Shown piece by piece: positions 3,060 through 7,899 of a DNA stretch of 47,891 nt. The notes beneath the pieces are model-generated. The model saw only the letters and a list, made by a program, of their open reading frames with translations. It ran no database searches and was not told where the DNA came from. Position 1 is the first letter of the stretch; each line of letters begins with the position of its first letter. The translations under genes were made by a program, and so were the position numbers. Source of the DNA: Caulobacteraceae bacterium (GTDB lineage: Bacteria > Pseudomonadota > Alphaproteobacteria > Caulobacterales > Caulobacteraceae); contig JAIERG010000018.1 in assembly GCA_019747095.1 (NCBI GenBank), positions 1-47,891 on the forward strand, written 5' to 3'.

Positions 3060-3206
3060 AGGCGGTCCAGTCCGAAATCACGCCGGCGGGGAGGCCGGTC
3101 CAACAGACTCCAATCATAGAAACCGCGCCGCGCCGCGTCCAGCGCAGTGATAGACGGTCTCACGTCAACATCTTGGGGGTAACCCGCGCTCCGTATGCCA
3201 TATCTA

Positions 3207-3236
3207 TTGCGACAACCGCAGGGCGAGGCCTAGAAT
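3207..3236 (+). promoter_or_regulatory. Putative housekeeping promoter of the RNR-like gene
   Basis: A TTGCGA -35 element (3207-3212) and a TAGAAT -10 element (3231-3236) are separated by 18 bases. The predicted start of transcription is about 20 bases before the ATG at 3266, which supports that start codon over the upstream TTG at 3173. Identified by eye only. Confidence 0.4.
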
Positions 3237-3265: not shown

Positions 3266-5992
3266 ATGCGCTTCACGCCCCGCTTCCACGCCCTGACCCG
3301 CGAGCTGCGGCTGGAGAGACGCGCGGTGGAACGGGCGGACCGCGTCGTGGACGCCGTCACCCCTTCGGGCTGGACCGACGCCCAAGTCGAGGCCTGGCTG
3401 GACTGGGCCGACGCCGTGCCGACCGACCTTCCGAGGCTCAGCGAGATCGCCGCCTCGCCGTCGCCGGTGCTGGGAGGCGCAGTCGATCGCTGGGCCGGCC
3501 GGCTCGCGGCGTGGGGGCGGGCGGTGGGGGTGTTCGCCTCCGACAAGGACGCCCGCGCCTTCGCCGACGACCTCGCCGCCTCCGTGATCCTGGGGCTCGC
3601 GGCCCCGGGCGCGTCCAGGCCCGACGGCGCGCGCGTTCATCCGGTGGCCGACGACCCCCAGGGCGAGACGCCCTCTCCGCCCGTCGCCCGCCTCGACGAT
3701 GCGACGGCGCGCGCCACCTTCGACGCAGGGACTCGCCGCCGTCAGGGCGAAGCCATCGCCGCCGCTTCCCTCGGCCGGGTCTGCGCCGCCCTGAACGCCG
3801 TCGCTGACGCGGTCGCGCGTTGCGAAGGGCCCGCCGCCGACTGCGCCGATCCGGCCGCCAATCCAGCGCTCGCCCGGGCCGCCTGGGCCGCGAGACAGGC
3901 CGGCGCAGACGACGCGACCATCCTGCGCGCCATCTCCGGAGAGACCTTCCTCGCCCCCGACCCCGCGTCGGCCGCACCCGACAGACGGGCGCTGCTGTCG
4001 GACGAGCCTTCGGACGAAGCGGTCGTCGCCGCCGCCCGCGCGGCCCTGGCCGGCCCGCTCACCCTTGCCTTCGATCCTGACGCGGCCGACCGCCTCGCCC
4101 TCGCGGCCGACGCCCCGTGCGCCGTCCTGTCCTGGCCCGCCCTCTGCGCGCTCGGCGGCGACGTAATCGGATCGCTCGAGGCGCTCGTCCGCCTGTGGAC
4201 CACGGCGCTGGAGATCGAGACCGCGGCCGGCTTCTGCACGGACGGCGCAACGAGCCGCTTGCGCCATGTCCATCGCCCGATCCGCCTGTGGCTGGACGGA
4301 GTGCTGGAAGGCTTCCTTCTGGCCGGTCGCGGGCCGAACGCTCAGGCCGACATGACCGGGCTCGCCGCGCTCGTCGTCGCCCAGGCCTCGCTGACCTCCA
4401 GCGAACTGGCCGACGCCCTCCACCCCGCCGGCGGCTGGTCCCGGATCGCGGGTTCCATCGAGGCCGAGCTGACAGCCTGCCGCGAGCGTCTCGGCGAAGG
4501 CAGCGTGTCGGATCGCGTGCGGACCGCGCTGGACGCGGCGGTGTCCGCCCTGCGCACCTCTGGCCGTCGCAACACCCTGATCGCCCTGGTGCCCCCCGAT
4601 CCGGAGACCTCCCTGCGGCTAGGCCTGGGCGCCTTGACCCCCGCCCAGACGGTGCAGACCGAGTGGGGCGAGACCTTGCGCCGACTGCACCCCGCCTTCC
4701 ACGCTGCCATCGCGGCATCGGGCGGGGATCCCGAAGAGGCGGAACGCTGGGTGCTGGGCCGTGGTACCTTGGTCGGCGCGCCCGGACTGGATCACGACCA
4801 TTTGCGCGGCCTCGGCTTCACCGATGCCGAACTCGAGGCCGTCGAACGCGCCTTGGCCTCGGTGGGGACGCTCGAGAACGCCTTCGTTCCGCCGGTGCTG
4901 GACGCGGGCTTCATCCACGACGTTCTGGGCCTCGACCCGGAGGCGACCCCGCCGCACGCACTTCTGGCCGCGCTGGCTCCTCCGGAGGCCCTGGCGGCCA
5001 CGCGCGCCTACGTCTTCGGGCGAGACGACCTGTCGGGTTGGACCGGCACGCCAGCCGATCTGGCCGAGCTGTGCGCTGATCCGGCCACCGTGGGGGCCGC
5101 AATGGCCCAGTCGCTGGCTGCGTTTGGAGACCTCCCGGTGGTCGCCGATCGGGTGCTGCCATGGACATCGACCCTGAATGAGGTCGAGGCCCTGATCCGG
5201 CAAGCCGCCGTCGTTGCGCAGCCGATTCGCCTCATCCCGACCCTTGCGCCTGCGCAGCCCGTGCTTGTCCTCTCCGAACCCGAGACCCGCCGCGTGCCCG
5301 AGCCGGCGGTGCCTCCCATCGAGACGGTCGTCGAACGCGTCGTCGAGCGCGACCGCACCCGCCGCAAGCTGCCCGACCGCCGCAAGGGCTACATCCAGAA
5401 GGCGGCTGTTGGCGGCCACAAGGTCTACATCCACACCGGCGAATACGACGACGGCGAGCTCGGCGAGATCTTCATCGACATGCACAAGGAAGGCGCCGCC
5501 TTCCGCAGCCTGATGAACAACTTCGCCATCGCCATCTCCATCGGGCTGCAATACGGTGTGCCACTGGACGAATTCGTGGACGCCTTCGTCTTCACCCGGT
5601 TCGAGCCCGCGGGCCGTGTGACCGGCAACGACTCCATCGGCTCGGCGACGTCGATCCTCGACTACATCTTCCGCGAACTGGGCGTGTCCTATCTGGGTCG
5701 CCACGAACTGGCCAACGCCGACGCCGAGCCGCTCGACGCCGACGGCCTGGGCGGAGGCAAGGCCGACGAACTGGTGCCAGCCTCCCACTTCATCTCGCGC
5801 GGCTTCGCCCGGGGCGCGGCCCCTGACAATCTCGTTGTCCTGCCGTTCGCCCGCCGCGCCGAACCCGATCCGCCTCCCACCTTGATCCACGACGCCGACG
5901 CCTGCCCCGCCTGCGGCGATTTCACACTCCAGCGGCGCGGCGGAGCCTTCGTCTGCGACGCCTGCGGCATCGCCCCGTCGATGCAGGGATGA
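3266..5992 (+). CDS. Catalytically degenerate class II (B12) ribonucleotide reductase-like protein, TSCPD C-terminus
   Basis: The protein (908 residues from this ATG) is clearest at its C-terminus: from about residue 700, [40 protein letters not shown] and [10 protein letters not shown] match the TSCPD end of alphaproteobacterial NrdJ, followed by a four-Cys ribbon (CPAC...CDAC) near residues 878-900. Earlier parts align by eye with NrdJ throughout: [13 protein letters not shown] plus DARAF near the N-terminus, [11 protein letters not shown] mid-protein, and a segment from [20 protein letters not shown] through [15 protein letters not shown]. The catalytic elements are missing: where NrdJ has NPCSEY...TAC this protein has DAADRL...APC, and the PTGT loop reads PPDPE. 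Family length is roughly 1,200, so it is also shortened. It is unlikely to reduce ribonucleotides; a regulatory or structural role is a guess. It overlaps the next gene by ATGA. Confidence 0.75.
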
Positions 5993-6417
5993 CCAGAGCC
6001 TTCTCTCACCCGCTGCGGGTGCGCTGGGCCGAGGTGGACGCCCAGGGCGTGGTCTTCAACCCGAACTATTTCCTCTACGCGGACGTCGCGGCGACCGAGT
6101 TCCTGCGGGCGCTCGGCGTGGTGCAGACGACCACGCCAGACCTTCTTGAAAGCTATGTGGTCGACGCGCGAGCCAGCTTCCGGGCTCCCGCGCGCTTCGA
6201 CGACCTGCTGGACATCGGGGTTCGCGTCGACCGGATCGGGCGCTCGAGCTACGCCCTCAGGATCGATGTGATGCGGGATGGCACCGTGCTGGTCGAGGTC
6301 TGGCTGACCTATGTCCGGGCGGTGGATGGCACATCGACCCCCCTCTCTGAGGCGTTTCGCCTCGCACTCGAGGCAACGATGGCTGCCGGAGAAAGTTCAG
6401 AAGATCGTAAGGCCTGA
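5989..6417 (+). CDS. YbgC/FadM-type acyl-CoA thioesterase (4HBT hotdog fold)
   Basis: This 142-residue protein has the single hotdog domain of the 4-hydroxybenzoyl-CoA thioesterase family. The active-site segment [16 protein letters not shown] places the catalytic Asp at residue 17, followed by the helix with [16 protein letters not shown]. Such enzymes hydrolyse short or medium acyl-CoA esters in the cytoplasm; the substrate cannot be told from sequence. Its ATG overlaps the TGA of the RNR-like gene (ATGA), so the pair is translationally coupled. It is not the tol-pal-associated ybgC by context. Confidence 0.88.
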
Positions 6418-6423
6418 ATAAGA

Positions 6424-6945
6424 GTGTTGCCGCGTTCTCACCGTTCCGGGACCGCATCCGTGATCAAGCCTTCTCTCACCGTGATTGTCCTGTGCCTGCT
6501 GGCGGTGCCGGTCCAGGCCCAGAACGCCAATCAGATTGAGCGAGTGCGGAGCGGCGGGTCCTGCCCGGGCTGCAATCTGTTCCAGGGCGACTTCTCGGGG
6601 ATCGAAGCACGGGGCCAGAACCTGTCAGGCGCTCGCATCCGCCAGGCAGATCTGAGCCTGGCCACCATGAACCGCACCCGGTTCTCCAACGCCGACCTTC
6701 GGGACGTCGAGGCCTACGGCGGGGTTTTCTCCTCTTCAAACTTTTCTGGTGCCAATCTGACGAACTCCAGCTGGGTAGGAGCCTACCTCGAGGGTTCCAG
6801 CTTTTCAGGTGCGACACTTGCCGGTGCGAACTTCTCTGGCGCTCAACTGGCCCGAGCGACCGGCCTTACGCAACGTCAGTTGAATACAGCGTGCGGTGAC
6901 GCCTCGACCACTCTGCCAAGCCGGCTGACCATACCGCTCTGCTGA
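6424..6945 (+). CDS. Secreted pentapeptide-repeat protein, short paralogue
   Basis: The 173-residue protein has an N-terminal signal peptide ending near VPVQA|QN, then SGGSCPGC (Cys 47 and 50), then about 15-20 pentapeptide repeats of the A(D/N)LXX type (for example GANLT, GATLA, GANFS), expected to fold as a right-handed quadrilateral beta-helix. The C-terminus has ATGLTQRQLNTACGD and a terminal Cys. The GTG at 6424 is used here; GTG at 6460 would give a more compact signal peptide. It is a paralogue of the next gene: both share a GGSC-x2-C motif, the ATGLTQ-x2-Q/I...TACGD block and a Cys after the last repeat. Function unknown; periplasmic location inferred. Confidence 0.8.
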   Translation: MLPRSHRSGTASVIKPSLTVIVLCLLAVPVQAQNANQIERVRSGGSCPGCNLFQGDFSGIEARGQNLSGARIRQADLSLATMNRTRFSNADLRDVEAYGGVFSSSNFSGANLTNSSWVGAYLEGSSFSGATLAGANFSGAQLARATGLTQRQLNTACGDASTTLPSRLTIPLC

Positions 6946-7008
6946 CATCCAACTGACCTTACGGCGATTTAAGTGGGATTCCGGTGCGAGAGGGATCATC
7001 TAGGACGC

Positions 7009-7899
7009 GTGACCCAGAACCCGAACCTGTTCCGCCCTCGCCTCCTCGCCATTGCCGCATCGTGCAGTGCTATGCTCGCCGCCGGGACGGCCTCCGCGGA
7101 GATGCAGCTTCAATGGCAAGACCGCGATGTGGCCCGGATGGTGTCGCTGGGTGGTTCGTGCAACCGCTGCGAGCTATCGGGGCGCAACCTGTCGGGTGCG
7201 ACCTTTACCGGGGCATCGTTCGTATCCGCGACGCTGGTTGGTACCAATCTCCGTGGAGCCGAGCTTGTCGGTTCGAACTTTTCGTCGTCCGATTTCAGCC
7301 GGGCCGATCTGCACGGGGCGGAGTTGGTCGGCTCGAATTTCACTGCCGGCGTGTTCAACGACGCAGTCCTGAACGGGGCGGAGGCGCAAGGAGCGGTCTT
7401 CTCGCGCGCCAATCTCACGGGAGCCAACCTGTCGGGTGCCGAACTGGTCGGGGCCAATATGAACGGAGCCATCCTGGCTCGCGCCAACCTTTCAGGCGCG
7501 GAACTGTTCGGCACGACGCTGGCCAACGTCAACGCCCGCAGCGCCAACTTCGCCGAAGCCCAGATGAACGCCGCCAACATGGCCAATGGCGACTTCGGCT
7601 CAGCCAGCTTCGCGAATGCCGAGCTGGACGGAGCCCGTCTGTCCGGTGCAAGCTTCGACCGGGCCAACTTCTCCGGTGCTTCACTAAACCGAACCGACAT
7701 TCGCGGTGCGGATTTGTCGAGGGCCACCGGGTTGACCCAGGCCCAGATTTCCACCGCTTGCGGCGACTCGACCACGCGCCTGCCGCGTAACCTGACGGCC
7801 CGTACCTGCACCCGCGTCGTAGTCCGCGCACCGCGGGCCCCGGCACCTCCTGCTCCGCCTCAGCCGCGGCGCAACATCGTCATCGCCGACGCGAACTGA
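7009..7899 (+). CDS. Secreted pentapeptide-repeat protein, long paralogue
   Basis: From the GTG at 7009 this is a 296-residue protein with a signal peptide (RPRLLAIAASCSAMLAAGTASA|E), a GGSCNRC motif at about residues 49-54, and roughly 35-40 consecutive pentapeptide repeats (LSGAE, LVGAN, LSGAT and similar) up to about residue 235. It ends with ATGLTQAQISTACGDST and a proline-rich tail. An upstream in-frame GTG at 6973 would add 12 residues without a better signal. The repeats predict a long beta-helix rod. Known pentapeptide proteins include DNA mimics such as Qnr, but a signal peptide argues against gyrase binding. Tandem duplication with the preceding gene is likely; function unknown. Confidence 0.82.
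   Translation: MTQNPNLFRPRLLAIAASCSAMLAAGTASAEMQLQWQDRDVARMVSLGGSCNRCELSGRNLSGATFTGASFVSATLVGTNLRGAELVGSNFSSSDFSRADLHGAELVGSNFTAGVFNDAVLNGAEAQGAVFSRANLTGANLSGAELVGANMNGAILARANLSGAELFGTTLANVNARSANFAEAQMNAANMANGDFGSASFANAELDGARLSGASFDRANFSGASLNRTDIRGADLSRATGLTQAQISTACGDSTTRLPRNLTARTCTRVVVRAPRAPAPPAPPQPRRNIVIADAN

Follow-up and report, generated by a model that had tools for sequence, protein, structure and literature searches.

The window analysed here, a stretch of 47,891 nucleotides from a Caulobacteraceae bacterium (contig JAIERG010000018.1 of assembly GCA_019747095.1), carries on its forward strand an open reading frame of 908 codons at 3266..5992 (ATG at 3266, TGA at 5990-5992), where it had been placed by an earlier note made from the DNA letters alone. 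That note described a full-length relative of the class II ribonucleotide reductase (RNR) NrdJ that had lost catalysis and been retained for another role. We call the gene pseudo-nrdJ, and its 908-residue product appears to be a catalytically dead descendant of NrdJ. The body of the protein (residues 1-662; 3266..5251, forward strand) has a trimmed RNR fold with no recognisable finger loop, PTGT loop, specificity-site region or active-site cysteine. It is followed on the same strand by a near-invariant C-terminal module (residues about 690-820; 5333..5725), identified as TSCPD or IscU-like by Pfam PF12637, block identity and a weak fold match, and by a predicted zinc ribbon of the form CxxC...CxxC (C880, C883, C897 and C900; 5903..5965) without the two redox cysteines. 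Upstream lie two NrdR-type boxes, the first at 3163..3178 (CGTCAACATCTTGGGG, score 15.3 with the nrdA/nrdB-trained matrix described below), a palindrome centred about 95 base pairs (bp) before the start codon, and the second at 3195..3210 (ATGCCATATCTATTGC, score 8.3), exactly 32 bp from the first.

In the window protein the TSCPD domain PF12637 passes its Pfam cut-off (40.5 bits), and the N-terminal domain of class II enzymes leaves no more than a trace (15.2 bits, cut-off 27). The protein also matches NCBIfam NF005736, the 1,222-position model of alphaproteobacterial NrdJ, in five stretches with an E-value of 3.6e-99, and fails its curated cut-off (333 bits against 1,737). A family profile of 122 relatives was compared with one made from 13 real NrdJs of the order, giving an E-value of 2e-165 over 845 columns, and the top match of the family profile among PDB sequences is 7b9p, the NrdJ of Rhodobacter sphaeroides (E-value 5e-65). 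Taken together, these three matches indicate that the homology to NrdJ is full length and not that of a loose TSCPD domain, as the earlier note had held. A search of 5.8 billion proteins (7,994 candidates scored) returned 166 homologues, and among the 120 listed the named ones are mostly Brevundimonas or Caulobacteraceae. The predicted structure of the body is a confident model that contains the RNR barrel fold, and BORF2 of Epstein-Barr virus (EBV; PDB 7rw6) is one of its fold matches. The window's genome, at 94% completeness, yielded no live NrdJ.

The loss of the catalytic parts was followed in 40 pseudo-nrdJ loci, the window and 39 others from four families, with 30 real NrdJs drawn from this order for comparison; L001, which is part of the window, and L073, in which no TSCPD frame was found, were excluded before counting. 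The radical-cysteine finger-loop motif NPCxE and the active-site redox cysteine motif TACNL occur in all 30 real NrdJs, and a second such motif, HACF, in 28 of them, whereas none of the three is present at any of the 40 pseudo loci. PTGT, present in 30/30 real NrdJs, was found in a single pseudo sequence (L060) when the whole protein was searched; in the window PPDPE (residues 443-447; 4592..4606, forward strand) aligns with this loop, as the earlier note had read it. The same note took DAADRL (residues 272-277; 4079..4096, forward strand) for the counterpart of NPCSEY, and here the loss of the motif stands while a plain replacement does not: in one alignment the NPC columns are gapped at all 40 loci with DAADRL at the edge of the gap, and in a second it lies opposite NPCSEY with almost no identity. 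In another alignment family f2 fills 65% of the finger-loop block, but at 9% identity. Further blocks are mostly absent, near positions 161-260, 421-440 and 621-640 in real-NrdJ numbering, with f3 retaining part of 161-260. In the alignment of 122 sequences no body cysteine is conserved at 90% or above, the only invariant cysteines being C880, C883, C897 and C900. When four marks (NPCxE, TACNL, PTGT and the six-cysteine ribbon) were scored in every locus with a module-bearing frame, partial frames and repeat fetches included, 95 frames lacked all four, 74 carried all four and one, L090, was mixed. These absences support the view that pseudo-NrdJ is catalytically dead. The excluded locus L073 (G198:C1:1106544-1108709, family f4) holds a real-NrdJ-like match to model positions 1-741 in 17 kb without a detectable TSCPD frame, and is perhaps an independent truncation.

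In real NrdJ and pseudo-NrdJ alike the C-terminal module is under much stronger constraint than any other part, and against one real NrdJ the family averages 69-97% identity across five 20-residue blocks. The six ribbon cysteines of real NrdJs are assigned as four zinc ligands and a redox pair on the basis of the S. nassauensis class II RNR, as described in PMC5704485; the six-cysteine ribbon is found in 30/30 real NrdJs and, with the redox pair gone, at 0/40 pseudo loci, whereas the four predicted zinc cysteines are kept at 40/40 pseudo loci and in 119/120 homologues, the exception, P0107, being truncated. Since the module was retained after the redox pair was lost, electron transfer is not what mainly constrains it, and to judge from this pattern it must have a separable job. 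What that job may be is hinted at by PMC5704485, which reports that a class II RNR oligomerises through its cysteine-rich C-terminus in a dATP/dGTP-dependent way and notes signs of a third nucleotide site. PMC9669993 divides long class II C-termini into an IscU-like part and a zinc finger and states that the former had no reported role. The IscU-like fold match of the module is weak, IscU, SufU and SufE structures being recurrent among its weak matches.

At all 40 pseudo loci the frame is open from stop to stop over 774-1,061 codons. In close Brevundimonas pairs the ratio of nonsynonymous to synonymous substitution rates (dN/dS) is 0.10-0.31 for the body and 0-0.13 for the module, a range that covers 18 of 22 pairs, omits four with identical sequences and includes some pairs that share a sequence fetched twice. 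Between the window and L155, whose proteins are 88% identical, the 171 codons of the module show no amino-acid change at a synonymous rate (dS) of 0.37. By these substitution patterns pseudo-nrdJ is under purifying selection. The mixed contig L090 aside, we find what characterizes a pseudoenzyme, catalytic residues that are consistently lost in a gene held by selection.

In an order-wide survey of 200 genomes, full NrdJ matches (best E-value 0) occur in 49, namely all 40 sampled from family f5 and nine from f4, and a weaker match weighted to the C-terminus occurs in 140, including the window's; 40 of these were read and all are dead. By best E-values no NrdJ match is present in 11 genomes (three of the window's genus, seven of genus g14 in f4 and one of f3). 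Among named records the dead form is found in Caulobacter, Brevundimonas, Phenylobacterium, Maricaulis and Asticcacaulis (a partial frame), and Euryhalocaulis (L133) has a live-type NrdJ. Within the window's genus 111/121 genomes, and 97/103 of good quality, have an NrdJ-family match. Outside the order, a search of the class over 289 genomes gave 207 with a match, and among the matches listed 144/147 reach the size of a real NrdJ, with an open frame of 1,170 codons or more. The class I subunit NrdB is present in 198 of the 200 genomes; the two exceptions in which it was not detected, G119 and G169 of f5, possess full NrdJ, and both are fragmented assemblies. In some Caulobacteraceae there is another RNR large subunit, about 750-780 residues long (G002:C1:146430, G235:C73:34603 and similar), and a second NrdB was not found in G002, G007, G027 and G309, which have this second subunit.

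The gene order accC-aat-DUF2155-NDUFA12-[nrdJ]-pentapeptide-aspS, whole or in part, is common to pseudo loci. It recurs at most real nrdJ loci read in f5, at some in f4, and in other Alphaproteobacteria such as Methylobacterium and Bosea. Because the locus is shared by pseudo-nrdJ and real nrdJ, the pseudoenzyme is an NrdJ changed in place. At seven further loci (L227-L233) NDUFA12 is directly followed by the pentapeptide genes, which represents clean gene loss. In the gene tree pseudo-NrdJ forms one clade, which covers four families (support 88/26 in a module-only tree), and in a tree of a neighbouring gene two real-NrdJ genomes are nested inside the pseudo-NrdJ group (support 0.687), so that a single origin is favoured by these trees and not proven.

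The strongest clue to the function of pseudo-NrdJ is the pair of NrdR-type boxes. A weak hint preceded the detection of the upstream palindrome, and the window's box pair reaches p 0.005 in a tandem shuffle test. The window's genome carries an NrdR gene. When up to one mismatch to CAACATCTTGKGG is allowed, the sites in this genome include the upstream regions of pseudo-nrdJ, nrdB and nrdA and that of a serine hydroxymethyltransferase gene adjoining nrdR. A 16-bp matrix (consensus CCACTACATCTAGTGG) was trained solely on 30 nrdB and 30 nrdA upstream regions of the family, with 54 sites used. Its scores exceed the 99% shuffle level in 22/40 pseudo-nrdJ upstream regions and 10/30 of those of real NrdJs, as against 1/34, 0/36, 1/27, 0/35 and 1/38 for five control genes and 0/7 for the gene-loss junctions, where 220-340 bases were scanned instead of the 320 used for genes. 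In a second set from the same genus, 25 of 29 further pseudo loci lie above the level; L157, among the 29, lacks its 5' end, and since it is cut there its miss is no test. A second box follows at 32 bp for 17/21 main sites (30 upstream regions including the window's) and for 19/22 in the second set, and at 31-32 bp for 18/28 nrdB and 21/26 nrdA main sites. The paired test reaches p 0.01 in 14/15 cases in f1, 7/10 in f3 and 12/30 among real NrdJs; it is mostly negative in f2 (1/6) and wholly so in f4 (0/9). Box-to-start distances are approximate, because the first or nearest ATG was taken as the start, and two f3 sites lie inside the chosen frame. Box consensus and paired spacing fit the NrdR box given in PMC4009431 (acaCwAtATaTwGtg, in two copies spaced by whole helical turns), and NrdR would presumably bind at pseudo-nrdJ as well. 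Given paired boxes like those of nrdA and nrdB, pseudo-nrdJ is probably made when the cell makes its class I RNR, and within Caulobacteraceae the live enzyme and the dead gene seem to share one switch. The site before the serine hydroxymethyltransferase gene (L243:1498-1513; G000:C183:13805-13820) scores 23.1, a possible link to one-carbon metabolism or to self-control of NrdR, whose autoregulation had never been found according to PMC5343134.

Descent from NrdJ, loss of catalytic residues, conservation, purifying selection and paired boxes are all read from the sequences themselves, and from them we infer NrdR binding, a partner and an effect. In cells of this order that also had a class I RNR, an ancestral nrdJ lost catalysis, and with it the finger loop, the active-site cysteines, the PTGT loop, the specificity region and the C-terminal redox pair, while the RNR fold was kept in trimmed form and the IscU-like and zinc-ribbon module hardly changed. 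Pseudo-NrdJ would then be expressed alongside NrdA and NrdB when deoxynucleoside triphosphates (dNTPs) are low and act through this module, either as an oligomerising scaffold or by modulating the class I enzyme or the dNTP pool. No ATP-cone match was found in the NrdB of the window's genome or in the 588 residues that could be read of its NrdA, whose gene is cut by a contig end, which leaves room for activity control in trans. Together with a module job beyond electron transfer and the oligomerisation reported for a class II C-terminus, this favours, at roughly even odds, a noncatalytic role within the class I RNR system as modulator or scaffold, the main rival being a scaffold independent of RNR. 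We accordingly assign a probability of roughly 0.5 to an in-place pseudoenzyme that is co-expressed with NrdA and NrdB and serves the class I RNR or the dNTP pool without catalysis; put more broadly, it probably has a noncatalytic job in the same system as the working enzyme of DNA-precursor synthesis. A narrower form, in which pseudo-NrdJ is an NrdR-controlled switch that oligomerises through its IscU-like and zinc module in response to dATP or dGTP and so adjusts class I activity in trans, we regard as doubtful; if true, dNTP control in the Caulobacter cell cycle would gain a further layer.

Several observations weigh against a dead, NrdR-controlled partner of the class I enzyme or are mixed in this respect. 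The pattern CAACATCTTGKGG gives nine sites in the window's genome and its reversed form seven, so there is no genome-wide enrichment, and what counts as evidence is the placement before nrd genes and the pairing. The best gene-loss junction, L233, has a matrix score of 12.3, below the 13.5 shuffle level of its set and yet nonzero. L090, a 5,225-base contig of the Brevundimonas metagenome-assembled genome UBA2388, joins, within 1-2118, a live-type body with TACNL and PTGT to a dead-type tail without the six-cysteine ribbon, the join falling inside the conserved module; its frame begins at the contig end and is as a whole 59-63% identical to three real NrdJs. L185, likewise at a contig end (G235:C45), has a live-type YRDGSKLSQPL stretch followed by a dead-type tail. 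L090 is most simply an assembly chimera, with a true intermediate possible, and the joins in both contigs are likely of that kind, possibly intermediates. The absence of boxes in f4 and in most of f2 also belongs here, and it speaks at the same time for a stand-alone sensor or scaffold, in which the RNR body is the frame for an IscU-like and zinc module whose ligand or partner (a metal, a nucleotide, an iron-sulfur cluster or another protein) has no connection with class I RNR. This possible, somewhat unlikely alternative draws further on the constraint on the module in real and pseudo NrdJ and on the IscU, SufU and SufE matches. However, the NrdR-type pairs in Caulobacteraceae link pseudo-nrdJ to dNTP synthesis, and since only the ribbon cysteines are invariant, IscU-type cysteine ligands are not conserved in pseudo-NrdJ.

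The remaining explanations look to the ancestry of the protein or to its decay. A dead enzyme might still bind adenosylcobalamin and report vitamin B12 status, as its descent from a B12 enzyme and the trimmed RNR fold kept in the model could suggest, but the catalytic half lacks large parts and Caulobacter crescentus is described as having two B12 riboswitches, on btuB and metE (PMC6538847), which makes such a sensor improbable. That the gene is a decaying pseudogene, open by chance, could account for the fast divergence of the body, its low identity to NrdJ and the clean gene loss in several genomes. Against this stand long frames open at every locus, dN/dS well below 1 in body and module, a confident body model, invariant zinc cysteines and a clade spread over four families, and we consider decay very improbable; the retention for a non-enzymatic role argued by the earlier note fits these data. 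Least credible of all is an RNR or other radical enzyme that is still active through relocated catalytic residues. Several sources name the family ribonucleotide reductase, and the C. crescentus gene appears as NrdJ in papers, but no body cysteine reaches 90% conservation and both C-terminal redox cysteines are gone at 40/40 loci.

Downstream of pseudo-nrdJ, a YbgC/FadM-type thioesterase gene (5989-6417) starts with an ATG at 5989 that overlaps the TGA, and the co-translation noted earlier holds in the window. It does not extend to a general link, as the thioesterase adjoins pseudo-nrdJ at 1/152 other loci (L094), many of which extend only a short distance beyond the gene, and at 6/29 further loci of the same genus. 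Pentapeptide-repeat proteins encoded at 6424-6945 and 6973-7899 are neighbours of nrdJ or pseudo-nrdJ at most of the loci read, and their genes remain where that gene has been lost.

The naming of this family has consequences beyond the window. Some sources call its members vitamin B12-dependent RNR or RNR alpha chain; CCNA_01966 of C. crescentus is listed as a B12-dependent RNR in PMC5869019 and PMC6538847, the latter counting B12 use for dNTP production with this NrdJ in its scheme, and PMC10378866 counts NrdJ in 10/12 isolates of a set that includes one Brevundimonas. In L074, a named C. vibrioides record (a metagenome-assembled genome), the syntenic gene, 95% identical to the Caulobacter query, has none of the active-site motifs and no six-cysteine ribbon, and the NrdJ-family match in a C. 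vibrioides control genome falls below the cut-off. Our reading of CCNA_01966 rests on such relatives, and its interpretation as a B12-using NrdJ for dNTP production should be dropped or tested. Literature searches, with subscription journals mostly outside their reach, found no published account of pseudo-NrdJ as dead. PMC12186491 reports that raised dNTPs restrain the swarmer-to-stalked transition in the Caulobacter cell cycle; if pseudo-NrdJ does modulate class I RNR, then a protein of dNTP control has gone unrecognised in a model organism for cell-cycle research. For class II RNRs in general, we suggest that the module holds a conserved job separable from electron transfer, with pseudo-NrdJ as a natural separation-of-function protein.

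Among the closest known systems is the alphaproteobacterial class II NrdJ (NF005736; 7b9p), with which pseudo-NrdJ shares full-length homology, the RNR fold in the model, the TSCPD module, the four zinc-ribbon cysteines and the chromosomal locus, and from which it differs in being about 310 residues shorter, in lacking the active-site cysteines and the redox pair, and in having no recognisable finger loop or PTGT loop. The herpesvirus RNR homologues such as EBV BORF2 (PDB 7rw6) put the fold of an RNR large subunit to use in protein binding, but they are viral and of unrelated origin. Cytomegalovirus M45 is another non-reductase use of a large RNR homologue, and these herpesvirus proteins are class I derived and directed at host proteins. 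Another related system is NrdJb, the separate C-terminal subunit of the split NrdJ of Pseudomonas aeruginosa, which carries the IscU-like and zinc-finger module and is described as serving electron transfer to a live NrdJa (PMC4520616; PMC9669993), whereas pseudo-NrdJ has lost the redox cysteines and carries a dead body. The upstream region resembles the NrdR regulon as set out in PMC4009431, with two palindromic boxes an integral number of helical turns apart before an nrd gene, and differs from it in that the target gene here would encode a dead enzyme.
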